The notes under the pieces are model-generated. The model had not been told where the DNA came from. It did no database searches and was given only the letters and a program-made list of their open reading frames with translations. A program made the translations under genes and the position numbers. Shown here one piece after another: positions 2,135-22,274 of a stretch of DNA of 64,000 nt. Positions within the stretch are counted from its first letter, which is position 1. Every line of letters starts with the position of its first letter. Origin of the DNA: Zoogloea ramigera (GTDB lineage Bacteria > Pseudomonadota > Gammaproteobacteria > Burkholderiales > Rhodocyclaceae); assembly GCF_006539865.1 (NCBI RefSeq), contig NZ_BJNV01000010.1, positions 62,001-126,000 on the forward strand, written 5' to 3'.

Positions 2135-3922
<1,788 letters not shown>

Positions 3923-4038
3923 GGGTGCGGGACGCGGGCCGGGTGAAGGGTGAAGCGGTCTTGGGCCCGGGAGAAAGAGGCGGCTTCAAATAATCGTTAA
4001 TTTTACCGGAAGCGCGCCTCGCCGTCCCGCTGGCCGGC

Positions 4039-4743
4039 TTACGGGCGTTTGACGACCGCCGCGTCCTGCCCGAAGAGGACCTTTCGGGCGGCTTCGTCCA
4101 TCACCGGGGCCGGGTTGATCTGCGCCGTGAGAGCGTAGGCGCGGGCGGTGGCCGGCCGGGCGCCGATGGCCTCGAACCAGCGCTTGAGGTGGGGAAAGTC
4201 ATCGAGGTTCTGGCGCTGCTTGTCGTGGGGCACGACCCACGGGTAGCAGGCCATGTCGGCGATGGAGTAGGCGTCGCCGGCGATGAAGGGGCGGTCGGCG
4301 AGGCGCTTGTCGAGCACCGAGTAGAGGCGGGCGGTTTCCTTGACGTAGCGCTCGATGGCGTAGGGCACGGCCTCGGGAGCGTACTGGGTGAAATGGTGGT
4401 TCTGCCCGGCCATCGGCCCGAGCCCGCCCATCTGCCAGAACAGCCACTGAAGGGTGTCGATGCGCTGCCGCGGGTCGGCGGAGAGGAAGCGGCCGGTCTT
4501 TTCTGCCAGGTAGAGCAGGATCGCGCCGGATTCAAAAACCGAAATCGGCTCACCGCCGCCGGTGGGCGCGGTGTCGACGATGGCCGGGATGCGGTTGTTG
4601 GGGGCGATCTTCAGGAAGTCGGGCTGGAACTGCTCGCCCTTGCCGATGTTGATCGGCACGATGCGGTAGGGCAGGCCGGCCTCTTCGAGAAAAAGAGTGA
4701 TCTTGTGGCCGTTGGGGGTGGTCCAGTAGTAGAGGTCGATCAT
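4039..4743 (-). CDS. Glutathione S-transferase, Nu class (YfcG/YghU-like)
   Basis: The 234-residue protein has an N-terminal thioredoxin-fold domain starting MIDLYYWTTPNGHKITLFLE. The TTPNGHK segment is typical of Nu-class (YfcG/Ure2p-like) transferases, where Thr and Asn replace the classical catalytic Tyr or Ser. NNRIPAIVD provides the cis-proline glutathione-binding loop and FESGAILLYLAEKTG the next conserved element. The C-terminal half is the helical GST domain with IADMACYPWV. Related enzymes show disulfide reductase or peroxidase activity with glutathione. It is read in the same direction as queD upstream, 45 bp away, though a shared function is not evident. Confidence 0.9.
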   Translation of the reverse strand: MIDLYYWTTPNGHKITLFLEEAGLPYRIVPINIGKGEQFQPDFLKIAPNNRIPAIVDTAPTGGGEPISVFESGAILLYLAEKTGRFLSADPRQRIDTLQWLFWQMGGLGPMAGQNHHFTQYAPEAVPYAIERYVKETARLYSVLDKRLADRPFIAGDAYSIADMACYPWVVPHDKQRQNLDDFPHLKRWFEAIGARPATARAYALTAQINPAPVMDEAARKVLFGQDAAVVKRP

Positions 4744-4788
4744 GGTTGTCCCGTTGTCTTCAGGCGGAAGGGCGGCGCCCGGCGGAGT

Positions 4789-5241
4789 TCAGGCCTGCTC
4801 GGCGCGCACGGCGTCGGCCCAGCAGTTGGGCGTCTCGAACAGGCGCACCCGCTCGAGGCGCAGGTGGTTGCCGTAGATGTCGCGATAGGCCGGGTCGAGG
4901 ATGCGGAAGGCCTCGGCGGCGAGGTTCTCGGCCGTGGGCACCACGTCGAGGATCACCGTCTTGTGGCCAGGCATGCTCTGCAGGAAGGCGACCACCGCCG
5001 TGTCGCCCCGATAGGCGAGGAAGGCGTGATCCCAGACATCAACGACCTGCTGCTTGGCGATCGCCTTGACGTCGCCGAAGTCCATCACCATGCCGTTCAC
5101 TGGCGAACCGTCGCGCTTGATGGTGTCACCGGACAGCGTGATCTCCAGCGCGTAGCGGTGGCCGTGGAGGTGGCGGCACTGGCTGGCGTGGTCGGGAATG
5201 CGGTGGCCCGCGTCGAATTCCAGGCGGCGAGTGATGCGCAT
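4789..5241 (-). CDS. queD: 6-carboxy-5,6,7,8-tetrahydropterin synthase QueD
   Basis: This 150-residue protein of the 6-pyruvoyl-tetrahydropterin synthase fold converts 7,8-dihydroneopterin triphosphate to 6-carboxytetrahydropterin in queuosine (7-deazaguanine) biosynthesis. Zinc-binding residues His13, His25 and His27 and the catalytic Cys22 are visible in DAGHRIPDH and CRHLHGHRY. Residues LFETPNCWADA near the C-terminus match the conserved Glu region. The gene starts head-to-head with a radical SAM gene at 5312, separated by 70 bp. That arrangement suggests a shared promoter region and possibly a shared pathway. Confidence 0.92.
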   Translation of the reverse strand: MRITRRLEFDAGHRIPDHASQCRHLHGHRYALEITLSGDTIKRDGSPVNGMVMDFGDVKAIAKQQVVDVWDHAFLAYRGDTAVVAFLQSMPGHKTVILDVVPTAENLAAEAFRILDPAYRDIYGNHLRLERVRLFETPNCWADAVRAEQA

Positions 5242-5311
5242 GGGAACACCGGAAAATGGAAAATAGAGCAGCTATTATACGCAGCCTCGTTTCAACGCCC
5301 GGACCCGCGGC

Positions 5312-6163
5312 ATGAACTCCAGTCAGCAGATGCTCACGGTGAGCGACCACAACCGCAGCTTCATCCACATGACCTACGTTTACCCCGTGGTGTCGCGGCG
5401 TGCCGGCGGCGTCTCGGTGGGAATCAACCTCAACCCCAACAACGCCTGCAACTGGCACTGCGCCTACTGCCAGGTGCCGGGCCTCGTCCGCGGCGCAGCG
5501 CCGGAGATCGATCTGGCGCAACTTGAGGGCGAGCTCCGGAGCTTTCTCGACGAGCTGCTCCACGGCAGCTTCATGGCCGACCACGTGCCGCCCGAGGCGC
5601 AGGTGATCCGCGACATCGCCTTTTCGGGCAACGGCGAACCCACCAGCAGCAAGGCCTTTGCCGAGATCGTCGAGCGGGTCGTGGCGATCCGCGACGTGGC
5701 GGGGCTGGCTGCCGTCCCGATCCGCCTGATCACCAACGGCAGCCTGGTGGATCGGCCCTACGTGCAGAAAGCCCTGCAGAGCCTGGCGGCGGCCGGCGGC
5801 GAGGTGTGGTTCAAGCTGGATGGGGGCAGGGCGGAGGAGTTCATGCGCATCAACGGCGTCGACCTGGCGCCCGAGGCCCACGCCCGCCGACTGGCGCTGT
5901 GCGCATCGCTGTGCCCGACCTGGGTGCAGACGTGCATGGTCCGCCGGGACGACGAGGCGCCGTCGCAGGCGATGATCGATGCCTACTTGGCAGCCCTCGA
6001 TCTGGCCGGGCCGGGCGCCTTGCGTGGCGTGCATCTATATGGCCTGGCCAGGCCCTCGCTGCAGCCCGAGGCCGGGCACTTGCAGCGCTTGGCGCTCGAC
6101 GAGCTCGAGCAGATCGCCCTGCGCATCAAAGAAAAAGGGCTGACCGTGGTGGTCAGCCCTTGA
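5312..6163 (+). CDS. Radical SAM protein (COG0731-like), divergent from queD
   Basis: The 283-residue protein carries the radical SAM motif C-x3-C-x2-C as Cys46, Cys50 and Cys53 in NACNWHCAYCQ. This is followed by a GNGEPT glycine motif and LITNGSL, the usual SAM-binding elements. The N-terminal GVSVGINLNPNN stretch recalls COG0731 enzymes. It is not a standard QueE, which is shorter and usually has a different cluster spacing near its N-terminus. Because it faces queD, a role in deazapurine or tRNA modification is a reasonable inference, but the substrate is unknown. The last 10 codons overlap a strong hairpin that serves the opposite strand. Confidence 0.8.
   Translation: MNSSQQMLTVSDHNRSFIHMTYVYPVVSRRAGGVSVGINLNPNNACNWHCAYCQVPGLVRGAAPEIDLAQLEGELRSFLDELLHGSFMADHVPPEAQVIRDIAFSGNGEPTSSKAFAEIVERVVAIRDVAGLAAVPIRLITNGSLVDRPYVQKALQSLAAAGGEVWFKLDGGRAEEFMRINGVDLAPEAHARRLALCASLCPTWVQTCMVRRDDEAPSQAMIDAYLAALDLAGPGALRGVHLYGLARPSLQPEAGHLQRLALDELEQIALRIKEKGLTVVVSP
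6131..6163 (-). terminator. Rho-independent terminator of the XRE gene, lying inside the radical SAM coding end
   Basis: AAGGGCTGACC (6135-6145) and GGTCAGCCCTT (6151-6161) form a perfect 11-bp stem with a 5-base loop. On the minus strand it is followed by TTTTTC, so it terminates the leftward XRE transcript. It simultaneously encodes the last residues and stop of the rightward radical SAM gene. Confidence 0.8.
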
Positions 6164-6184
6164 GGGAACGACGCCACGCGCAGC

Positions 6185-6487
6185 TTAGTGGGCGACGCGC
6201 TCCTTGCGCTTCGCGCGGGCTTCCTTCTTCAGGGTCTTGAAGAGTTCGGGGTTGGTGGCCTTCAGGTACTCGACCACTTCAACGTCGTCCTTCTTGATCT
6301 TGCTGATATCGACCTGCTCGATGTGCACCAGGCGCAGCAGGGCCTGCACGGGGCGGGGAATGTTGCGGCCGCTTTCGTAGCGGGAACCGCCACTTTGGGT
6401 CACGCCGATCTTGGACCAGAACTGGGATTGGTTCATGCCCAGCTTACGACGGATTTCACGCACATCAACTTTTTCGGTGGTCTTCAT
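6185..6487 (-). CDS. XRE-family helix-turn-helix transcriptional regulator
   Basis: The protein has 100 residues from ATG 6487, chosen because AGGA lies 8 bases upstream; an in-frame TTG at 6502 overlaps that ribosome site. The helix-turn-helix spans roughly residues 10-60, with MNQSQFWSKIGVTQSGGSRYESG being the recognition region. The C-terminal third is rich in Lys and Arg. It stands alone between the radical SAM gene and lysC. A palindrome 63 bp upstream (6550-6565) suggests autoregulation. Its target genes cannot be told from the sequence. Confidence 0.8.
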   Translation of the reverse strand: MKTTEKVDVREIRRKLGMNQSQFWSKIGVTQSGGSRYESGRNIPRPVQALLRLVHIEQVDISKIKKDDVEVVEYLKATNPELFKTLKKEARAKRKERVAH

Positions 6488-6549
6488 TTTTGCAGTCCTC
6501 AAGGGGTTTTTAGTCTGGTAGCCATAACAACGGTCTAGTCGTCTATGTC

Positions 6550-6565
6550 TATAACTTTCGTTATA
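6550..6565. promoter_or_regulatory. Palindrome TATAAC-TTTC-GTTATA, putative operator
   Basis: A perfect 6-bp inverted repeat with a 4-bp centre lies in the AT-rich leader between the XRE gene and lysC. XRE regulators commonly bind such sites near their own promoter. The rest of 6488-6759 has several A/T-rich tracts but no gene. Confidence 0.4.
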
Positions 6566-6759
6566 TGTCGAAAAGTATAGATCACTACTCGTGAGACATA
6601 CAATGCCCTACTTGCAATGATTAGGGTTTTCCACACAGATTTCTTGTGACGTGATACACGCAATCTCGGGAAAACACCCCCTCAGCACGGGAAGCTGCAA
6701 GATTTCGAGTTATCCGCTAAGATCATGCGCTTTCCACATCCACGTCTTTAGAAGTCAAG

Positions 6760-7989
6760 ATGGCGCTCATAGTTCAGAAATATGGCGGCACTTCCGTCGG
6801 CAACCCCGAACGGATCAAGAACGTAGCCAAGCGGGTCGCGAAGTTTCACGCCCAGGGGCACAAGATGGTGATCGTCCTGTCCGCGATGAGCGGCGAGACC
6901 AACCGCCTGATCGCGCTGGCCAAGGAAGTCAGCTCGGCCCCCAGCCCCCGCGAGCTCGACGTTGTGATTTCCACCGGCGAACAGGTCACCATCGGTCTGC
7001 TCTGCATGGCCCTCCAGGAGCTCGGCATCAACGCCCGCAGCTACACCGGCGGCCAGGTGCGCATCCTCACCGACGACGCCTTCACCAAGGCCCGCATCCT
7101 CGACATCGACGGCGACAACATCCGCCGCGATCTCGACGCCGGCTCGGTGGTCGTTGTCGCGGGCTTCCAGGGCGTCGATGAAGCCGGCAACATCACCACC
7201 CTCGGCCGCGGCGGCTCCGACACCACCGGCGTTGCGCTGGCGGCGGCGATCAAGGCCGACGAATGCCAGATCTATACCGACGTGGACGGTGTTTATACCA
7301 CCGACCCGCGCGTCGTGCCGGAAGCCCGCAAGCTGGACACCATCACCTTCGAAGAGATGCTCGAGATGGCCAGCCTCGGCTCCAAGGTGCTGCAGATCCG
7401 CTCGGTGGAGTTCGCCGGCAAGTACAAAGTCAAGCTTCGGGTCCTCTCCAGCTTCCAGGAGGAAGGCGAGGGCACCCTGATTACCGTTGAGGAAGACAAG
7501 AACATGGAACAGCCGATCATCTCCGGCATTGCTTTCAATCGCGACGAAGCCAAGATCACCGTGCTGGGCGTTCCCGACAAGCCGGGCATCGCCTACCAGA
7601 TCCTCGGCCCGGTGGCCGAAGCCAACGTGGATGTCGACATGATCATCCAGAACGTCGGCCACGACGGCACCACCGACTTCTCGTTCACGGTGAACCGCCC
7701 CGACTACGACAAGACGCTGGGCATCCTCGAGAGCGTCAAGACCCACACCGGCGCCCGCGAAGTCCGCGGTGACCGCACGATGGCCAAGGTGTCCATCGTC
7801 GGCGTCGGCATGCGCTCCCACCCGGGCGTCGCCTCGCGCATGTTCCGTACCCTGGCGGAAGAGGGTATCAACATCCAGATGATCTCCACCTCCGAGATCA
7901 AGATCTCCGTCGCCATCGACGAAAAGTACCTCGAACTGGCCGTCCGCGTGCTGCACCGCGCCTTCGGTCTGGACCAGGCAGCAGCCTGA
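6760..7989 (+). CDS. lysC: Aspartate kinase
   Basis: The 409-residue monofunctional aspartokinase phosphorylates L-aspartate to open the Lys/Thr/Met/diaminopimelate pathway. The N-terminal kinase domain shows KYGGTSVG at residues 7-14 and GRGGSDTTGVAL. Two C-terminal ACT domains (about residues 265-405; ITVLGVPDKPG and VSIVGVGMRSHPG) give allosteric feedback control by lysine and/or threonine. The length equals the usual alpha-subunit form; an internal start for a beta subunit, as known in Bacillus or Corynebacterium, cannot be excluded. It is monocistronic, followed by the promoter of tRNA-Ser. Confidence 0.95.
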   Translation: MALIVQKYGGTSVGNPERIKNVAKRVAKFHAQGHKMVIVLSAMSGETNRLIALAKEVSSAPSPRELDVVISTGEQVTIGLLCMALQELGINARSYTGGQVRILTDDAFTKARILDIDGDNIRRDLDAGSVVVVAGFQGVDEAGNITTLGRGGSDTTGVALAAAIKADECQIYTDVDGVYTTDPRVVPEARKLDTITFEEMLEMASLGSKVLQIRSVEFAGKYKVKLRVLSSFQEEGEGTLITVEEDKNMEQPIISGIAFNRDEAKITVLGVPDKPGIAYQILGPVAEANVDVDMIIQNVGHDGTTDFSFTVNRPDYDKTLGILESVKTHTGAREVRGDRTMAKVSIVGVGMRSHPGVASRMFRTLAEEGINIQMISTSEIKISVAIDEKYLELAVRVLHRAFGLDQAAA

Positions 7990-8001
7990 TCCAAATAGTT
8001 C

Positions 8002-8030
8002 TTGCGTAGCGGCTGTGCGTTGTCTATAAT
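8002..8030 (+). promoter_or_regulatory. Sigma-70 promoter of tRNA-Ser
   Basis: TTGCGT (8002-8007) and a consensus TATAAT (8025-8030) are spaced by 17 bp, and the tRNA begins 14 bp downstream. Confidence 0.75.
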
Positions 8031-8043
8031 GCGCAGCTCTTGC

Positions 8044-8137
8044 GGAGAGTTGGCCGAGAGGTCGAAGGCACTCCCCTGCTAAGGGAGCATGCGGGCACAA
8101 ACCTGCATCGAGGGTTCGAATCCCTCACTCTCCGCCA
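8044..8137 (+). tRNA. tRNA-Ser(GCU)
   Basis: The acceptor stem GGAGAGT (8044-8050) pairs with ACTCTCC (8127-8133), with discriminator G and an encoded CCA. The anticodon loop CTGCTAA gives anticodon GCT, which reads AGC and AGU. A long variable arm (GCATGCGGGCACAAACCTGC) is typical of serine tRNAs, and GGTTCGAAT is the T-loop region. The total of 94 nt fits class II. Its 3' end is the integration site of the mobile element and remains intact. Confidence 0.97.
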
Positions 8138-8140
8138 AGA
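8119..8140 (+). repeat. attL: 22-bp direct repeat at the tRNA-Ser 3' end
   Basis: The 22 bases starting AATCCCTCACTC and ending CCGCCAAGA, within the T-arm and acceptor end, recur exactly at 13865-13886. Flanking bases differ on both sides. The integrase gene starts 124 bp inside. Confidence 0.9.
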
Positions 8141-8147
8141 ACGACAT

Positions 8148-8174
8148 GGGCCCCGAAAGGGGCCTTTGTTTTTT
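8148..8174 (+). terminator. Rho-independent terminator after tRNA-Ser, inside the element
   Basis: GGCCCC-GAAA-GGGGCC (8149-8164) is followed by TTTGTTTTTT. It lies inside attL, so it came with the element and ends the tRNA transcript before the integrase. Confidence 0.85.
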
Positions 8175-8263
8175 CTCGGGTTTCTTGTAATTCAAGGGGT
8201 TGCAGACGACCCCCGAAGGCTTTCTTGGGAACTTCGCTGGGAACATCCAGCTAAAATCCAAGG

Positions 8264-10018
8264 ATGAAAGCCGACAAGATGACTCACCCCACGCTTGAAC
8301 GTCACGGCGAGCAATGGCGCCACAAGAAGCGGATTCCCGCAGACGTTCTCCCGCACTTCGGCGGGGTCAAGACCCTCACGTTTTCCACGAAGACCCCTGA
8401 CGCACGAGAGGCGCGGGCGGAGTGCCTTCGCTGGCTGGCCGACCTTTCGGCCCAATTCCAGGGGCTTCGTCGGGTGGCCGAGGGGGGAACCGCCGTTCCC
8501 GTTCGCCCGGGTCTCACCCCGCAGGAACTCGGTGAGGTGCTGGCCGAGGAGGTTGCCCGCTTCAAGGCAGAGAAACTGGCGGCCGATGCTTCGGCGGCAG
8601 GGCGCCGGCTCCTGGCTGAAGGCGGAGCACTCTCGGCTGAATATCGCCTGTCCGTCATCGGCATTGACCGTGATTCCGCTCGGCTGGCTGTCCAGGGCGC
8701 GTTTCCCGGTGTGTTGGACGAGTTCGAGGCGTTGGCGCTCCGTCGCATGGCCGGCGTAGGCGTCCCGCTTGAGAAGTCATCGTCGGAGGCAACTGACGCG
8801 GCGCTGGCGTTCGCCGAAGCGTGCCTTGAGGTTGCGGAGGTCGTGAAGCAACGCGCAGCCGGTGGCTTTGATTCCACGCCCAATCCTCAACCACGTCCCG
8901 CCCTCGCTGCGCCCGAGCCCGTGGCGACTGACGCCGCTCCGCTGCTCTCTGTCGTCAAGGCTGCCTTCGTCCAGCAACACGACCCCAAGGCTCCCGTGAC
9001 GAAGAAGTATGAGGCGGTGCTGCCGCTGTTCATCGAGTTCATGGGCGACGTGCCGGTTTCCCAGCTTCGCCAGAAGCCCGTCACAGAGTTCTTCGACATG
9101 ATTCAGCGCCTCCCGCCGCGTTGGCTGGACAAGCGCCGCCAGACCGGCAAGACCGTCCAGGAGCTTGCCGCGATGGACTGGCCGGAGCGCATGGCCGAAA
9201 AGACCTTCGACGACACGTACAAGATGGCGCTGCGGTCGTTCTTCAAGTATGCCCGCGTGACCTTCGGGGATGACGGCTGGCCGATTCACTTGACGACCGA
9301 GGGCATCAAATACCGGGGAACCGAGGAGGAGGGCAAGAACCGTCAGCGTCCCATGCGTCCCGAGGAGCTTCGGCGGCTATTCGAGGGCCCCGAGGCCGTG
9401 GCCTTTGCTGCGGACCCGTCGCAGGCTTCGGCTTACTGGCTGCCGCTCCTGGGCCTCTACACGGGCGCCCGGATCAATGAGCTGTGCCAGTTGAACCCGC
9501 AGTGCGACATCCGGGACGATGACCCGCAGGCGTCGGGGGTCTGGTTCCTCGACATCACGGAGGAGGGCGAGGCTGCCGAAGGCGTGGATAAATCAGTCAA
9601 GAACAAGACCTCGAAGCGCCGTGTTCCCGTTCATTCCGTTCTCGTCGGCCTGGGCTTCGTGGATTACGTGAAGCGGCTCAAGGATGCGGGCGAGGCTTTG
9701 CTGTTCCCGATGTGGGCCCCCGTGAAGGGCAGGGCGGCGGGCGGCGCTGAGCGGTGGTTCCGGCTCCACTTGCAGACTCTGGGGCTGCGTGACGAGACCC
9801 GGGGCGCCCGTCTGGTCGGCTTTCACGCATTCCGCTCGACCTTCATGGCCCGTGCGGAGGAACTCAATGAGCCCCGCGCCGATGCAATCTCGGGGCACTC
9901 CCGGGAGGGCGAAAGCGCCGTGAAGCGCGGTTATCGAGGTGAGACGCCGCTGCGGGTCAAGGTCGAGATTCTGGAACGGATCACGTTCGATGTGGCGCCG
10001 CCCCGGCCGGGCCCTTGA
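8264..10018 (+). CDS. Tyrosine-type site-specific integrase
   Basis: The 584-residue recombinase probably integrates and excises the element at tRNA-Ser. The N-terminus (WRHKKRIPADVLPHFG) matches the DUF6538-type arm of large phage-like integrases. A core-binding region lies around residues 225-350 and the catalytic domain in the C-terminal third. The catalytic residues are Arg403 (GARINELCQL), His521 and Arg524 (HAFR), a His in SGHSRE, and Tyr557 (KRGYRGE). ATG 8279 is an alternative start, since an AAGGA lies 14 bases before it but directly abuts ATG 8264. It is the first gene after the attachment site, as usual for such elements. Confidence 0.92.
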   Translation: MKADKMTHPTLERHGEQWRHKKRIPADVLPHFGGVKTLTFSTKTPDAREARAECLRWLADLSAQFQGLRRVAEGGTAVPVRPGLTPQELGEVLAEEVARFKAEKLAADASAAGRRLLAEGGALSAEYRLSVIGIDRDSARLAVQGAFPGVLDEFEALALRRMAGVGVPLEKSSSEATDAALAFAEACLEVAEVVKQRAAGGFDSTPNPQPRPALAAPEPVATDAAPLLSVVKAAFVQQHDPKAPVTKKYEAVLPLFIEFMGDVPVSQLRQKPVTEFFDMIQRLPPRWLDKRRQTGKTVQELAAMDWPERMAEKTFDDTYKMALRSFFKYARVTFGDDGWPIHLTTEGIKYRGTEEEGKNRQRPMRPEELRRLFEGPEAVAFAADPSQASAYWLPLLGLYTGARINELCQLNPQCDIRDDDPQASGVWFLDITEEGEAAEGVDKSVKNKTSKRRVPVHSVLVGLGFVDYVKRLKDAGEALLFPMWAPVKGRAAGGAERWFRLHLQTLGLRDETRGARLVGFHAFRSTFMARAEELNEPRADAISGHSREGESAVKRGYRGETPLRVKVEILERITFDVAPPRPGP

Positions 10019-10079
10019 GCACTCCGTGGCCTCCGCTGTGCAATTGCACACAGGTAAGGATGCACACACCGCGGCCCGG

Positions 10080-10898
10080 TCAGTCGTCGATGCCGATATC
10101 GTCGTCTTCTTCGTTCAGTGTCCAGTGCTCTCGAAGGAAGTCCGGCAGGCCTGCATCGTAGATTTCCAGGGCTCTGGCGAAGGCCTCGCGGCGCTGGTGG
10201 CCGCGCTTCCCCAAGTGCTTGGCGAGGATGTTGGCGAACTGCTGCGCCTCTTTCTCGATTCGGTCGTCCCAGTCGATTTCCTCGACCTCCTGGCCTTGGG
10301 CAAGCATCCGTGCTTGGTGCCAGTTGAGTTCGCTCGGGTCGCGGTCGGGGTGCAACTGGGCGAGCTTTGCCCGGACCTCGCGCATTGTGGCGACCGTGCG
10401 GACGCTGGCGCCGGATAGCTCTGCCACCTTGGCCTTGGAGAACGAGGTCTCCGCGAGGGTAAGCCGCCATGCGGTCTCGGTCTTCTCACGACTGCTCATG
10501 GTGAGCTTGTCGCGGGTGTTCCCTTCGGCCGCTCGGGCAGCGGCCGCTTCAAGGGGGCCGCTGAAGACCTCGACCGGAACGGCATGATGGCCCTTGCCGG
10601 CGCTACGGTAGGCTGCAATCCGATGATGTCCGTCAATACAGGCCCACCACTTACCGTCCCACCAGACGGTGATGGGGGCCAAGTCCTTGCCATGCTGGGG
10701 CGCCTTCGCCAATTCCTTGATATGCGCCTCGCTGACGTGCTTCAGGGGCTGCCGATGTTGGAACACCGGAATGTGGAGGCGGATTTCCTCGGGGCTGAGG
10801 TATTGCGGTGGCGTCTCCGGGGCCGGGTGGCCCTGCATGACCTGTGCCGCCAGTGCGTTCAATGCGGCCAGAAAGCTCGGCTCTTCTTTTACTCTCAC
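10080..10898 (-). CDS. ParB/Spo0J-family N-terminal (ParB-like nuclease) domain protein
   Basis: The 272-residue protein starts at GTG 10898 with GGAG 8 bases upstream. Residues 33-115 form a ParB/Srx-fold domain, with the phosphate-binding box as DGHHRIAAYRSAG. A helix-turn-helix follows at about 150-180 (FSKAKVAELSGASVRTVATMR), and the tail is strongly acidic (EEDDDIGIDD). No ParA partner is present in the window, so plasmid-type partitioning is unlikely. Relatives on genomic islands act as regulators or CTP-dependent DNA-binding proteins. It is the last gene of the leftward block, 47 bp after the zinc-ribbon gene. Confidence 0.8.
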   Translation of the reverse strand: MRVKEEPSFLAALNALAAQVMQGHPAPETPPQYLSPEEIRLHIPVFQHRQPLKHVSEAHIKELAKAPQHGKDLAPITVWWDGKWWACIDGHHRIAAYRSAGKGHHAVPVEVFSGPLEAAAARAAEGNTRDKLTMSSREKTETAWRLTLAETSFSKAKVAELSGASVRTVATMREVRAKLAQLHPDRDPSELNWHQARMLAQGQEVEEIDWDDRIEKEAQQFANILAKHLGKRGHQRREAFARALEIYDAGLPDFLREHWTLNEEDDDIGIDD

Positions 10899-10945
10899 TG
10901 CAAGTTCTCCAGGGCCTCGACAAGGGCCGCTTGTTGGTTCTTGGT

Positions 10946-11560
10946 CTACTCGTTCTCTCGCTGCTCCAGGCGGGCCACATAAAGCCCCGCCACGCCGAAG
11001 GCGGCCTTGATGTGTTCTGCGATGACCGCCAGCGTCCGGGGCGCCACATCGCGATAGACGCGCTTCGTCCGCTTTGCCTTGTCGTCCCAGTAGGTGCCCG
11101 CGTTGGTGTCGGTCAAGGCCCGTGCGCGTCTCGCTAGCTGGGCATCGAAGGCGGCATCGGACTTGAAGCGCCTGGGCTGCTCTTCCTGCATGAGGAACAG
11201 GGCGAGGACGGTCTCCGTCAGCGTCTCCACGGGCACCTCGCGGGCCAGCTTCACGAGTTCCTGGCCGGCTTCCCGCTCATGGGACATGAAGGCGCGGCCT
11301 CGCAGGGCCTCCGCCTCCTGGGCCTTGGCCGCGTCGATGACCACGCCCCAGCGCTGGGCAAGGATGCTCCAGGCCTGATTGCCTTGGTTCTTCTCCATCC
11401 GCAGTCTGACCCTCTGGCGGTAGGGCGCGAGTTCTTGAACGGTGACACCGGTCTGCTCGGGATGGCCGTGACGGCGCCGGATGGCCTTGTGTCGATTGCA
11501 GAGGGCGCCGAAGCCGGCTGCCGTCTCGGGGCACTGGGAAACGCTACAGGGTCTGCTCAT
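10946..11560 (-). CDS. Hypothetical protein with N-terminal cysteine/histidine (zinc-ribbon-like) motif
   Basis: The protein has 204 residues from ATG 11560 with AAGGAG just upstream. The N-terminus has CSVSQCPETAAGFGALCNRH, a C-x4-C-x10-C-x2-H arrangement that could bind zinc, followed by basic residues (KAIRRRHGHP). The remainder is charged and mainly helical and matches no family I recognise. It sits between the resolvase and the ParB-like gene on the same strand of the element, so it may be a DNA-binding accessory protein. The function is unknown. Confidence 0.65.
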   Translation of the reverse strand: MSRPCSVSQCPETAAGFGALCNRHKAIRRRHGHPEQTGVTVQELAPYRQRVRLRMEKNQGNQAWSILAQRWGVVIDAAKAQEAEALRGRAFMSHEREAGQELVKLAREVPVETLTETVLALFLMQEEQPRRFKSDAAFDAQLARRARALTDTNAGTYWDDKAKRTKRVYRDVAPRTLAVIAEHIKAAFGVAGLYVARLEQRENE

Positions 11561-11669
11561 GGGCTCCTTCGCGGGGAAATTCGTACCCGTCCCCTGGCAC
11601 GGACAGGCACGGAAAAGAATTGAAGTAGTGACGGTGCTCGCGGCTGTTGGCTCGGCGAGCTGTGGGCGG

Positions 11670-12248
11670 TCAGGTTTGCGGCGCCTTCATGAGCCGCTGG
11701 AGGGTCGATAGCGCAATGCCCAGCTCCGCCGCGACCTTCCGCCAGCTCATGCCCTGGCTGAACAGGTCGGCAGCCTTGGCCCGCACGTCGGGGGCTGTCT
11801 TCGGCGGCCGTCCCAGCTTGAAGCCCTCGGCCTTCTTCTGGGCGAGCTTGGCCTTCGTCCGCTCCGAAATGATTTGCCGCTCGAACTGGCTGATGGCCGC
11901 GAGCATGTTCAAGGTGAGCTGCGACTGAGCCGAGCCGTCGAGCTTGCCCAGCCCCAGCACTTCGAGGGTGATACCGGCTTTGGCGAGGTCTTCCACTGTG
12001 GCGATCACGTCCAGCACGTTCCGGCCCAGCCGGTCGAGCTTGGCGACGACCAGCGTATCGCCAGCGGTCAGGCGGCTCCGAAGGTGCGCAAACTGGGGGC
12101 GCTCAAGGGCCGGCACTTTACCCGAGACGCCGTGCTCCACATAGACCCGGTCCGGCTCGATGACATGGCCGGCGTTGGTGATTTCACGAAGCTGCTGCTC
12201 CGTGGTCTGCTCGGTCGTCGAGACCCGTAGGTAGGCGAAGGTGGGCAT
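11670..12248 (-). CDS. Serine recombinase (resolvase/invertase family)
   Basis: The 192-residue protein starts at ATG 12248; the frame is open further upstream but the family N-terminus is MPTFAYLRVSTTEQ. The catalytic Ser10 lies in YLRVSTTEQ. The conserved KLDRLGRN and the E helix (SQFERQIISERTKAKLAQKK) are present, and the C-terminus is a helix-turn-helix (SWRKVAAELGIALSTLQRLMK). The size fits small resolvases or invertases such as those of Tn3 elements. Upstream lies a cluster of TACCG/CGGTA repeats (12293-12381) that would suit a resolution site and autoregulated promoter. Whether it resolves, inverts or regulates this element is not known. Confidence 0.92.
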   Translation of the reverse strand: MPTFAYLRVSTTEQTTEQQLREITNAGHVIEPDRVYVEHGVSGKVPALERPQFAHLRSRLTAGDTLVVAKLDRLGRNVLDVIATVEDLAKAGITLEVLGLGKLDGSAQSQLTLNMLAAISQFERQIISERTKAKLAQKKAEGFKLGRPPKTAPDVRAKAADLFSQGMSWRKVAAELGIALSTLQRLMKAPQT

Positions 12249-12292
12249 GGCGTGCGGCTCCCGTCTTGTATTTAAAACGGGGTGCATTGTGT

Positions 12293-12381
12293 CGGTACGA
12301 TGTACCGCCGTCAATACCGTGTTTGTCGGTACGGTTTGGCTGTACCGGATTTTGTACCGGCCAACGGTTATATTTCAGTAC
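12293..12381. repeat. Cluster of CGGTAC/GTACCG repeats, candidate resolution (res) site
   Basis: CGGTAC occurs at 12293 and 12327 and GTACCG at 12302, 12342 and 12354. Near-copies ATACCG and CAGTAC lie at 12314 and 12376. Several are paired as inverted repeats, for example CGGTAC-GAT-GTACCG. The cluster lies 45-133 bp upstream of the resolvase start, where resolvases bind their own sites. Confidence 0.5.
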
Positions 12382-12727
12382 AAAACGGCGAGGTTCGGAG
12401 AGGGACCGGTCGGGCGCTCGGGGGAGGGCTGACGTGGCCCTCGATTCAGGTACGACTGATCTTTAGGTAGACACTCGACGTTTGCTGACAGAGCGGTGCT
12501 GTGCGGGGGCGAGGGGGGGGGAAGACTAGTCGCTCTCGAAGAGGGCTGGCCTCTAAGAAATTTCCGCCGAAATTCCTAGGAGAAATCCATTATCTTCCGC
12601 TTTGCTGCTAGCTAGTGGGTTCGCTCATCGTTATGTGGTGGTGGAGCCTTCCTGGTGGTATACTTAAACAGTATCTTTTGATGTCTTCGTCCTTACTGCC
12701 TCGGACAGCTTCGCCACTAGGGAACAT
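12382..12727. other. Non-coding leader of the cargo gene
   Basis: This 346-bp stretch has no convincing gene. Its A/T content rises toward 12600-12700 (for example CTTAAACAGTATCTTTTGATG), where the promoter of the cargo gene probably lies. AGGGA sits 5 bases before ATG 12728. Confidence 0.4.
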
Positions 12728-13741
12728 ATGACACTGCGAGACCAACTGAGCGAACTTCTCCCGGGTCTTCTGCCTGAAAACCCCGACAGTGCCGTTAATG
12801 GAACGTCTCTACTGGAGGCCGTTCGCCCGAGGCTTCAAGGTGAGTATACGGAAGCGACAATTCGACAGCACTTTTCGGTGATGGCTGGTGATCCGACATC
12901 TCCAATAGCGCGGGTGTCTCAGGGACACGGTTACTATCTGCGGGCTGCTACCCCAGTTGTGGAGGCTCAGGATGCGGTGTTGACTGAGGTTGGCGTGGTT
13001 GAGCAACCTGCCGAACAAGATGGCGGGAGGTCTAGTCAGCGGGAGGAGAAATTCCGCGCCTTGTTCATCCGTTATTGCGAAATTGGAAATCGTTTCCCTG
13101 TTCACATAGAGCATACCACTGCTGCAAGGCAGCCCGCAGGCGTAAACAAGTGGAAATTCCCGGATGTAGTTGTTCTGGACTGGGATGTGGGACGTATCTC
13201 TGATGCGGGCTATCAGATTGATCGTGGGCTCTTGGAGGTTAAGCGCAGCCTTGGGGACCAACCGTTCCGTCTTACGAGTGTCGAATTGAAGGTTGGACTA
13301 AGTTTGTCGTCGTTCCGCGAGAGCTTTTTTCAATGTGTGAGTAACTCAAAGTGGGCGCATCATGCGTATTTGGTTACTGCCAATGCGCTTCAAGATGAGA
13401 CGCTCGTGAGGGAGCTACGAAGGCTGGGAACGTCATTTGATATTTCGGTTCTATCCTATGGGCTATCGAACGAGGTGTTGGACCAGTTGCCCAATGCGGA
13501 GGTGATTCTGCGCAGTAATGACCAAGAAATTGAACGGCTTGCTGCTGCTATCTCGATTTCCCGCGTGTCGTCTGGTCGGGCTCGAGAGGCTCTTGACTGG
13601 GAACACATTGAGGACGTCCGGACTCAAAGCGGGGATATTAATGACGTATTCGTCTGGATATCTCGTTGTCTCATTGATGGTCGTCCTTACGCTTTTGATG
13701 ACTTTAAGCAGATAGCCCAGCTTGAGGCTGGATACAGGTAG
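12728..13741 (+). CDS. Predicted winged-helix plus PD-(D/E)XK nuclease protein, possible stand-alone defence gene
   Basis: The 337-residue protein starts at ATG 12728 with AGGGA 5 bases upstream. Residues 1-72 look like a winged-helix domain (SLLEAVRPRLQGEYTEATIR, then a wing GHGYYLRA), similar in layout to the HARE-type domains fused to restriction enzymes. Residues 105-250 fit a restriction-endonuclease-like core: Asp146 in FPDVVVLDW, Glu186-Leu-Lys188 in SVELKVG, and Gln202 in ESFFQCVSNSKW, followed by the strand HHAYLVTA. Base composition is visibly less GC-rich than the neighbours. It has no methyltransferase partner. The nuclease assignment is inference from motif spacing, and the defence role from its position as island cargo. 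Confidence 0.6.
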   Translation: MTLRDQLSELLPGLLPENPDSAVNGTSLLEAVRPRLQGEYTEATIRQHFSVMAGDPTSPIARVSQGHGYYLRAATPVVEAQDAVLTEVGVVEQPAEQDGGRSSQREEKFRALFIRYCEIGNRFPVHIEHTTAARQPAGVNKWKFPDVVVLDWDVGRISDAGYQIDRGLLEVKRSLGDQPFRLTSVELKVGLSLSSFRESFFQCVSNSKWAHHAYLVTANALQDETLVRELRRLGTSFDISVLSYGLSNEVLDQLPNAEVILRSNDQEIERLAAAISISRVSSGRAREALDWEHIEDVRTQSGDINDVFVWISRCLIDGRPYAFDDFKQIAQLEAGYR

Positions 13742-13864
13742 AGCACCTCCAGTTATTGATGTGGGGTTGATTTCGTGACTCTTCGTGGGTACATTGTTGG
13801 GAACATTTCCGAGCGAGGCCTTCGGAAACCCGCGTAGATACTGGGATTGCGGCACTCTCTGCAC
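13742..13864. other. Element tail without a gene
   Basis: The 123 bp between the nuclease stop and attR contain no gene and no obvious terminator stem with a T-run. Confidence 0.3.
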
Positions 13865-13886
13865 AATCCCTCACTCTCCGCCAAGA
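13865..13886 (+). repeat. attR: second copy of the 22-bp tRNA-Ser end
   Basis: This is an exact repeat of 8119-8140. Only the tRNA 3' segment is duplicated, so it is not a second functional tRNA. Confidence 0.9.
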
Positions 13887-13901: not shown

Positions 13902-13930
13902 AAAGCCCTGAGAAATCAGGGCTTTTTGCT
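13902..13930 (+). terminator. Terminator, probably the original one of tRNA-Ser
   Basis: AGCCCTGA-GAAA-TCAGGGCT (13904-13923) is followed by TTTTTGCTTTT. It directly follows attR, where the tRNA transcript would have ended before integration. Confidence 0.8.
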
Positions 13931-21032: not shown

Positions 21033-22274
21033 TCACCCCTGCGCCGTGCCCACTTCGGCACGCTGCAGGGGCAAGGCGAGCGTGCACGCCCAGCAGATCG
21101 CCAGCATCACCGCCGAACCGACCAGCCCGTACAGCAGCCCGCCCCACTGGTACAGCAGTCCGGACAGCAGCGTGCCGATGAAGCGCCCCAGCGCATTGGC
21201 CGCGTAGTAAAAACCCACATCCTCCGCCGCCTTCTCCGACCCCGCATAGGCCAGGATCAGATAGGAGTGCACCGACGAATTCACCGCAAAGGCGACGCCG
21301 AACACGCCCAGCCCGGCCACCACCACCCATTCGAGCCGGGGCGCGTCGAAGGCCACCGCCAGCGCCAGCGCGACCGGCACCAGCGCCAGCGCTGCCGACC
21401 ACCCGCGGGCGGCCGGCACCTCGGTGGAGAGCCCGTCGGCGCTACGCTTTACCACCTGCGGCGCCACGGCCTGCACGAGGCCGTAGCCGATCGTCCACAG
21501 GGCCAGAAAGCTGCCGACCATCGTGAAGGTCCAGCCCCGGGAGTACAGAAACACCGGCACCCCGACCACGAACCACACGTCCCGCGCCCCAAAAAGCACC
21601 ACCCGCGCCGCCGCCAGGGTGTTGATGCCCGGGCTCTTGGCAAACAGCTCCTTCGCCGATTTCGACGCCTTGCCCTTGCCCATCAGCGGCGGCAGCGACG
21701 TCAGCACCCCCGCCAGCACCAGCGCCAGCAGGCCCGCCATGACCCACAGGGATTGGCTGAAGCACAGCGTCTCGAGGAGCAGCCCACCCAGAAAGAAGCC
21801 CACGCCCTTCATCGCGTTCTTGCTGCCGGTGAACCAGGCGACCCACCTGAAGAGCTGGCTGGCGCTTTCCTCCTTTGCCGCGGCGGCGGTCACCTTGATC
21901 GCCGACTTGCTGGCCGTCTTGGTGAGATCCTTGGCGACGCCGCACACGCCCTGGGCCGCCACCACCCACGCCACCGACATCAAGGCCGTCCAGCCGGGCT
22001 GCAGCATCGAGAGCAGCGTGAAGCCGGCGATCTGCGTGACCAGGCCCACCGCGAGCATCCGCGTGATGCCGTAGCGCGTCGCCAGCCAGCCGCCGATCAG
22101 GTTGGCCACCACGCCGGCCGCCTCGTAGAGCAGGAACAGGAAGGCCAGCGTGAAGGGCGAATAGCCCAGCCGGTAGAAGTGCAGCAGCACCAGCATCCGC
22201 AAGGCGCCATCGGTGAGGGTGAAGCCCCAGTAGGCGGCGGTGACGATGGCGTAGTTGCGGGCAGCGTGCTGCAT
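21033..22274 (-). CDS. arsJ: Organoarsenical efflux MFS transporter ArsJ
   Basis: The 413-residue MFS protein has about 12 hydrophobic segments. The start [20 protein letters not shown] is the ArsJ family N-terminus, followed by LRMLVLLHFYRLGYSPF. ArsJ exports 1-arseno-3-phosphoglycerate, the unstable ester made when GAPDH uses arsenate. Its ATG overlaps the stop of the upstream GAPDH gene in TGATG, so the two are translationally coupled. An open frame continues upstream through the GAPDH region but is a shadow. Together with the divergent arsR it forms a recognised arsenate-resistance module. Confidence 0.93.
   Translation of the reverse strand: MQHAARNYAIVTAAYWGFTLTDGALRMLVLLHFYRLGYSPFTLAFLFLLYEAAGVVANLIGGWLATRYGITRMLAVGLVTQIAGFTLLSMLQPGWTALMSVAWVVAAQGVCGVAKDLTKTASKSAIKVTAAAAKEESASQLFRWVAWFTGSKNAMKGVGFFLGGLLLETLCFSQSLWVMAGLLALVLAGVLTSLPPLMGKGKASKSAKELFAKSPGINTLAAARVVLFGARDVWFVVGVPVFLYSRGWTFTMVGSFLALWTIGYGLVQAVAPQVVKRSADGLSTEVPAARGWSAALALVPVALALAVAFDAPRLEWVVVAGLGVFGVAFAVNSSVHSYLILAYAGSEKAAEDVGFYYAANALGRFIGTLLSGLLYQWGGLLYGLVGSAVMLAICWACTLALPLQRAEVGTAQG

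Follow-up and report, generated by a model that had tools for sequence, protein, structure and literature searches.

The window analysed here, a stretch of 64,000 nucleotides of DNA from Zoogloea ramigera, contains a tRNA-Ser(GCU) gene that is occupied by a small integrative element. The element extends over 8119-13886, that is 5.8 kb, in a Zoogloea-like host, and is bracketed by two copies of a 22-bp core taken from the tRNA 3' end. Between the cores there are five open genes, namely an integrase (+), a ParB-like gene (-), a zinc-motif gene (-), a serine recombinase (-) and a cargo gene (+). The features, with their coordinates in the window, are the following:

8044..8137, + strand: tRNA-Ser(GCU), the integration target (ARAGORN); the left repeat includes its 3' end
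8119..8140, + strand: left 22-bp core repeat (attL), an exact direct repeat, placed also by empty-site alignments
8148..8175 (hairpin 8148-8165), + strand: terminator-like hairpin and T run, supplied by the element, directly behind the tRNA (terminator scan)
8226..8246, + strand: left arm-type repeat pair (TGGGWAC at a spacing of 12 bp), immediately ahead of the integrase start (pair pattern scan)
8264..10018, + strand: tyrosine integrase, 584 aa, with a DUF6538 N-terminal domain (domain searches)
10080..10898, - strand: ParB-like protein, 272 aa, with a DGHHR motif (phrog_1033, E 8e-15)
10946..11560, - strand: open reading frame (ORF) of the 204-aa zinc-motif protein, Cys/His-rich at its N-terminus (C..C..C..H, RRHGHPEQ), with relatives at 98, 74 and 44%
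11670..12254, - strand: serine recombinase of resolvase/invertase size (PF00239, E 5e-35)
12290..12381, unstranded: CGGTAC/GTACCG repeat cluster over the predicted resolvase promoter, a putative res site or operator (repeat scan)
12728..13741, + strand: cargo, an HrgA-like protein of 337 aa with an N-terminal helical region and a putative PD-(D/E)XK nuclease domain
13786..13806, + strand: right arm-type repeat pair (pair pattern scan)
13823..13831, + strand: CGGAAACCC box at a distance of 42 bp from the right core, seen also in several relatives
13865..13886, + strand: right 22-bp core repeat (attR), an exact direct repeat
13902..13925, + strand: original terminator-like hairpin of the tRNA, now beyond the element's far end

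The core, AATCCCTCACTCTCCGCCAAGA, consists of the terminal bases of tRNA-Ser(GCU) plus three beyond. An exact-repeat search places its two copies at 8119-8140 and 13865-13886, 100% identical and spaced by 5,746 bp, as a previous sequence-only reading of this DNA had claimed. From the base composition, 6e-10 chance copies of this 22-mer are expected per 20 kb, and the stretch 8044-8140 has no further match of at least 14 bp in the window. The gene layout given in the same reading, with the integrase next to the tRNA, a leftward block and distal cargo, agrees with the ORFs and the domain searches. Its statement that capsid and transfer genes are lacking is also borne out, as searches of Pfam, NCBIfam, PHROGs and PADLOC (E 0.1) give no capsid, relaxase or mating-pore family for any of the five proteins. 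The sole packaging-labelled matches are two weak terminase PHROG matches of the serine recombinase (E 0.02); since they are confined to its C-terminal DNA-binding part, we read them as a shared helix-turn-helix. Four features not noted in that reading are the arm pair at either end, the box at the right end, the cluster of repeats ahead of the resolvase gene and the left-end hairpin.

To read the target site in other genomes, window positions 8000-8140 (the tRNA with 44 bases before and 3 behind) were used as the query for 23 genomes of the genus, with up to 1.5 kb of flank per genome (ca 110 bases in G010). Three of the 23 are unreadable: G005 gives a tRNA-Ser(CGA) locus only, G001 only a partial match, at a different tRNA, and the G002 contig breaks off within the tRNA gene. 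The sequence-only reading had proposed a check for empty tRNA-Ser(GCU) sites, and they are indeed there. In 17 of the 20 readable genomes no match to the window integrase is found on the 3' side of this tRNA, and 13 of these sites align across the predicted uninterrupted junction, the best being G020 with 93% identity over 171 bp spanning it. The remaining four (G011, G017, G019 and G014) give no junction alignment, and by eye a hairpin with a T run follows their tRNA directly.

The three occupied sites are the window's own genome, G007, where the integrase is 75% identical to that of the window and the contig stops 577 bp further on, and G018, where the tRNA-Ser(GCU) holds a different integrase element (L060, on contig G018:C25; 36% identity over part). 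Separately, contig G013:C146 has 36-bp matches to the tRNA 3' end at 13408-13443 and 21895-21930, on one strand and 8.5 kb apart, which perhaps bracket another element.

At the empty sites, the hairpin behind the tRNA differs from the element-supplied one when the sequences are read by eye. A hairpin near-identical to that at 13902-13925 lies directly behind the tRNA in the G020 empty site. Among the relatives described below, L057 has by eye a hairpin like the window element's behind its tRNA, while in L053 a T run is not evident.

The window integrase has the catalytic-type residues R403, H521, R524, H545 and Y557. The first four are kept in all 14 integrases that could be aligned in frame, and Y557 in 13 of them (the L055 integrase was left out of this alignment). 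At E 1e-50 the integrase is present in 9 of the 296 genomes of a bacterial-family sample, the window's genome included. With its duplicated tRNA 3' end, its intact adjacent integrase and the uninterrupted sites in relatives, the element belongs to those that a tyrosine integrase inserts at a tRNA gene.

Both ends also carry repeats outside the cores. The paired TGGGWAC pattern occurs twice in the 64 kb (8226 and 13786), compared with none in 100 shuffles. The longer form TGGGWACWT has four copies (8226, 8238, 13786 and 13798), each of them within the element and in the same orientation; this number is reached in 0 of 100 shuffles. A similar arm pair precedes the integrase in six relatives (L053, L057, L119, L120, L121 and L122), and their right ends, where known, show by eye arm pairs or single repeats. 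In several of these arm-pair relatives the integrase is only ca 40% identical to that of the window. The CGGAAACCC box, 42 bp from the right core in the window, is found at almost the same distance in L053 (43 bp), L120 (43 bp), L121 (42 bp) and L122 (44 bp), and at 54 bp in L055; it is not found at the right ends of L123, L054 and L037. Other repeats common to both ends are seen in L055 and L123, and TTACCAC-type repeats at both ends of L054 (by eye). Together, the arm pairs and the box would constitute lambda-like attP signals flanking the integrase.

Behind the left arm pair there is a -10-like sequence with the integrase ATG immediately after it, and a simple sigma-70 scan detected no promoter ahead of this gene. 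Because the pair sits at the integrase start, in the place where the promoter is expected, Int probably limits its own expression by means of it.

A protein-free pattern of the left end was run against 150 genomes of the bacterial family and matched three places in two genomes, with none for the reversed control. Two of the places are known members (in G162) and one is new (in G074). The new one, L137, lies at a tRNA-Ser(CGA) and has an integrase that is 27% identical, a 22-bp repeat 13.26 kb further on, a resolvase, and, at its right end, an arm pair with a diverged box.

In all, we count 12 repeat-bracketed elements, that of the window included. Ten are tRNA-bracketed relatives of 2.0-13.3 kb, with tRNA-Ser, Leu, Ala, Met and Asp as targets. 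Within the host's bacterial family, compact related elements thus sit at several tRNA genes. The elements, their targets and their repeat spacings are:

Window: tRNA-Ser(GCU), 5.75 kb
L053: Ser(GCU), 7.66 kb
L054: Ser(GCU), 10.0 kb
L055: Ser(CGA), 4.78 kb
L037 (Dechloromonas sp. MAG-193): Met(CAU), 4.28 kb
L051: Asp(GTC), 1.95 kb, decayed
L120: Ser(GCU), 3.85 kb
L121: Leu(GAG), 9.77 kb
L122: Ala(CGC), 5.99 kb
L123: Ser(CGA), 11.1 kb
L137: Ser(CGA), 13.26 kb
L052: a 23-bp repeat resembling a tRNA end, with no called tRNA, 6.91 kb

A tRNA-Thr call inside L054 was ignored, its 3' end being unlike that of a tRNA, and two further loci, L119 and L125, run into contig ends.

Relatives with part of the same core and different cargo had been anticipated by the sequence-only reading, and here they are found bracketed by tRNA-end repeats. 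That reading had also considered the combination of a tyrosine integrase with a serine resolvase unusual. This does not hold, as the pairing recurs in 10 of the 12 elements (L051 and L123 are without a resolvase) and is not peculiar to the window. A ParB-like gene is present in 7 of the 12, a share that is inflated because L051-L055 were found by a ParB-like search; among the members found by integrase or arm pattern only (L120-L123 and L137), four of five have a resolvase and none of the five a ParB-like match. The shared core is interchangeable; its parts are an integrase, in most cases a serine resolvase, in some a ParB-like protein and only seldom the zinc-motif protein.

It could be argued that the window element is an immobile, decayed remnant of a larger prophage or integrative and conjugative element. 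Decayed members do exist, such as L051 (2 kb, with a stop in parB) and L037 (with an integrase of only 255 aa), and the G+C content in the window falls from 63-66% over the core to 52-56% on the cargo side (12100-13700), a difference that is also consistent with cargo acquired separately. However, all five window genes are open, the catalytic residues and both arm pairs are present, the cores are identical, and the compact size recurs at different tRNAs, which makes a remnant quite improbable.

The ParB-like protein is part of an alignment of six sequences, and a profile search matches ParB chains in the PDB, with a best E of 3e-5. Domain searches reveal no ParA among the five element proteins, so there is no canonical ParABS pair. 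The protein occurs in 7 of the 296 genomes of the family sample (E 1e-6) and, by its profile, in 2 of the 369 genomes of a class sample (E 1e-8), the window's genome being included in both counts. Neither 72,556 plasmid records nor 50,697 phage records contain a match to it (E 1e-5). As single queries, the zinc-motif, cargo and ParB-like proteins have no relatives in viral contigs; alignment queries matched one such contig, L071. The ParB matches of two further loci, L072 and L073, were too weak and were dropped. In L069 (G943), a resolvase adjoins a ParB-like stretch, and the locus was used for that alone.

The zinc-motif protein has no match above the curated Pfam cut-off and none in PHROGs, NCBIfam or PADLOC (E 0.1). 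It is rare: among 60 genomes it is present in that of the window and in G005, and a scan of genome contigs gives two loci (Zoogloea sp. MAG-181 and Dechloromonas sp. MAG-193), to which one viral contig is added. An order-level profile match in G382 (E 6e-5, in a 716-aa frame) was dropped. In a structure model with a pLDDT of 81, the seven best fold matches are N-terminal domains of single-subunit RNA polymerases, a similarity to which sequence profiles lend no support. The cargo protein keeps the invariant columns of HrgA-like proteins (P-D, E-x-K and FQ.VSN..WA) in an alignment with 24-25% identity overall.

Window positions 10894-12036 are 94.5% identical to G005, whose integrase is only 41-46% identical; the G005 element targets a tRNA-Ser(CGA), and its ParB slot is taken by another, weakly ParB-like protein. 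For L037, identity is 74% in the zinc-motif and ParB-like genes and 42-44% in the resolvase, and the integrase is different and truncated to 255 aa. At the level of sequence, these comparisons demonstrate that modules move between elements. The cargo differs as well, with a PEP-CTERM protein in L037, T7 gp14-like proteins in L053 and L121, a KilA-N protein in L122 and an antirepressor-like protein in L052. In L123 the cargo row at 4936-9808 encodes an N6-adenine methyltransferase, a protein of weak similarity to a PADLOC endonuclease effector, an ORC/CDC6-like protein and a CARF protein, and is possibly a defence locus.

The ORF of the serine recombinase spans 11670-12314, and its conserved start region, with the likely start, lies near 12248. 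Ahead of the gene, 5 of the 13 CGGTAC/GTACCG copies in the 64 kb fall within 67 bp (shuffle P 0.016). A promoter-like site is located at 12314-12286 (-), but chance alone would give 1.0 site of this kind over the stretch covered by the scan. The enzyme could be an invertase, or one that shuffles cargo, rather than a multimer resolvase: its best PHROG is labelled DNA invertase, and in the PDB a DNA-invertase (E 7e-22) is slightly ahead of Tn3 resolvase (E 1e-19), with gamma-delta matched too. Yet no strong inverted-repeat pair framing a segment is found among the 21 pairs listed, and the repeats cluster at one place before the recombinase gene, so we find this assignment unlikely. In L038 (12538-12678), unrelated sequence breaks into the G005 resolvase gene at the end of the contig; we take this sequence to resemble the start of a transposase gene.

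Several relatives contain phage-related genes. T7 gp14-like internal virion proteins are encoded in two small tRNA-bracketed elements, L053 (8292-8801) and L121; the latter has, at 4339-4887 and 3884-4381, a T7 gp14-like and another internal-virion-like protein, with a match to phrog_308 (E 2e-7). L052, L055 and L121 all have an RNase H gene, and L121 adds a helicase-like protein; these replication-type genes agree with a circular stage. L071 (1-10803) and L075 are parts of one IMG/VR contig of 20,217 bp, in which the core of resolvase, zinc-motif, ParB-like and integrase genes adjoins a primase/helicase, TerS, TerL and a capsid-protease gene. Two further integrases follow after the capsid genes, and a repeat search of the contig gave no exact repeat acceptable as an element end. 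L071/L075 are possibly tandem elements, one of them capsid-forming, and because of the two further integrases the capsid genes may belong to the neighbouring element.

An alternative proposal is that of a phage satellite: the window element would be the smallest representative of a family not yet described, which upon infection by a helper is excised, replicates and enters helper particles, although it has no genes for packaging itself. The virion-like proteins of L053 and L121, the phrog_308 match and helicase-like protein of L121, the antirepressor-like and KilA-N proteins of L052 and L122 and the neighbourhood of the L071 core all point in this direction, and PMC10803314 describes a ca 6-kb helper-dependent satellite without capsid-remodelling genes (PICMI). 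On the other hand, the window element has no such phage gene, and no alpA or primase match is obtained for its five main ORFs or (Pfam) for eight small ORFs of the window. Moreover, the L071 capsid genes are possibly a neighbour's, and the ParB-like protein is unmatched in the phage records. We hold the proposal for possible and no more than that.

A more far-reaching version takes all these elements as an unnamed, plasmid-like phage-satellite family, present in this bacterial family and outside it, with one attP design (paired arms and right-end box) and interchangeable modules, whose zinc-motif protein mimics the promoter domain of T7-like RNA polymerases. The resolvase, ParB-like, RNase H and helicase genes would then be maintenance modules, the T7 gp14-like proteins would deal with podophages, and the zinc-motif protein would read or block helper transcription. 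We judge this version very improbable.

The element could also be moved by conjugation, as an integrative and mobilizable element (IME) with only an origin of transfer (oriT), the relaxase of a helper acting in trans on a cryptic oriT of the circular form. In its anatomy the element agrees with the iOriT class outlined in PMC11389934, i.e. integrated, with a circular stage and no relaxase or pore genes, and the stretch 12382-12727, which has no recognised gene, leaves room for an oriT. But no relaxase was recognised in the scanned proteins of the relatives, and the ParB-like protein is unmatched in the plasmid records. This route appears doubtful to us.

The reading that we prefer, and consider probable, is that the window element is a compact, non-self-transferring integrative element that is excised as a circle and moved by a helper. 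In the proposed mechanism, Int would bind the arm and core sites and recombine the two 22-bp cores, which would release a circle of 5.75 kb that could later re-integrate at a tRNA-Ser(GCU) 3' end. In the circular state, the serine recombinase would act on the GTAC repeats ahead of its gene and convert multimers, or tandem copies at the tRNA, to monomers. The ParB-like protein would bind the circle, with a role in partition or regulation. For transfer to a new cell the element would rely on a helper, with a phage or a conjugative element as the likeliest candidates; the dependence on a helper is suggested because no replication, packaging or conjugation gene is recognised in the element. The HrgA-like protein would be an exchangeable cargo, possibly directed against other DNA that enters the cell. 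As to the type of helper, the evidence is split: the phage-related genes of the relatives and the L071 neighbourhood lean to a phage, and no phage structural gene is recognised in the window element.

The insertion at the tRNA 3' end, the empty sites, the integrase residues, the attP-type signals and the module exchange are established by the DNA comparisons, while excision, multimer resolution, ParB-like binding, replication and helper transfer are steps that we infer. A number of points weigh against the preferred reading, the first being that there is no observation of an excised circle, of replication or of transfer. Neither an excisionase nor an AlpA-like gene turned up in the five main and eight small ORFs. 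With the patterns used, the arm pair was not found in four loci with related integrases (L118, L123, L124 and L125), of which L118 carries one clear arm copy, and the left-end pattern missed the window element itself as well as known members in G075 and G104. The repeats upstream of the resolvase reach a shuffle P < 0.05 in only 4 of 8 genes, window included. Finally, L123 has an integrase without a resolvase, L118 and L124 (ca 14-15 kb of flank, no end repeat found) have no resolvase match, and L120-L123 have no ParB-like match; neither gene can thus be strictly required.

Many bacterial islands have an integrase but no known transfer route, and the present family offers a small test case for them. 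Its apparently undecayed members with both ends found measure 3.9-13 kb, which is small enough to dissect. The arm pairs and the right-end box provide a sequence signature, valid for part of the family, that has located a further member without a protein search. The members also form a natural comparison, with a similar attP design, varied tRNA targets, and the resolvase, ParB-like and phage-related genes present or absent. One can thereby test which of the modules the circle requires for its persistence, and by which helper it is mobilised. No description of the family is among the matches listed in the open-licence literature searched, as far as the accessible parts of those sources go, which is consistent with the suggestion of the sequence-only reading that the family is unnamed.

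In a lambda-like attP, a core site is combined with repeated arm sites that stand apart from it on either side. Compared with it, the window element has two direct arms per side at a spacing of 12 bp, the left pair standing directly before the integrase, and its integrase differs from the lambda-like ones in having a DUF6538 N-terminal domain. The Tn3 and gamma-delta resolvases (PDB 5cy1 and 1gdt) are sequence relatives of the window recombinase over nearly its whole length. Unlike them, the window recombinase travels with a tyrosine integrase on a non-transposon element, and a DNA invertase scores slightly better.

Integrated elements of this kind are framed as hitchers that need helpers in PMC11389934. 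The relaxase-less IMEs treated there are, like the window element, integrated, site-specific and helper-dependent, with an oriT as their defining trait; no oriT is among the features recognised in the window element, to which no dedicated oriT model was applied. A loose parallel to the ParB-like gene is the ParB-domain protein in a prophage replication module that is reported in PMC4936722.

Nearest in kind are the PICMIs (PMC10803314) and the intY-alpA islands (PMC12595487). The PICMIs share with the window element a size of ca 6 kb, short direct repeats (17 bp in PICMI) and the lack of capsid-remodelling genes; they have an int, alpA and primase core at fis in Vibrionaceae, whereas the window element has the integrase only, at tRNA-Ser(GCU). 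The intY-alpA islands I23, I44 and I55 target the tmRNA, and one of them is moved by a jumbo phage. Like the window element, they have an end-proximal tyrosine integrase, direct repeats of a structural-RNA 3' end, defence-type cargo and no genes for autonomous transfer. They differ in having AlpA and a shared region of ca 18 kb, compared with 5.8 kb and no AlpA model match in the window element, whose core in turn adds the resolvase, the ParB-like protein and the zinc-motif protein.

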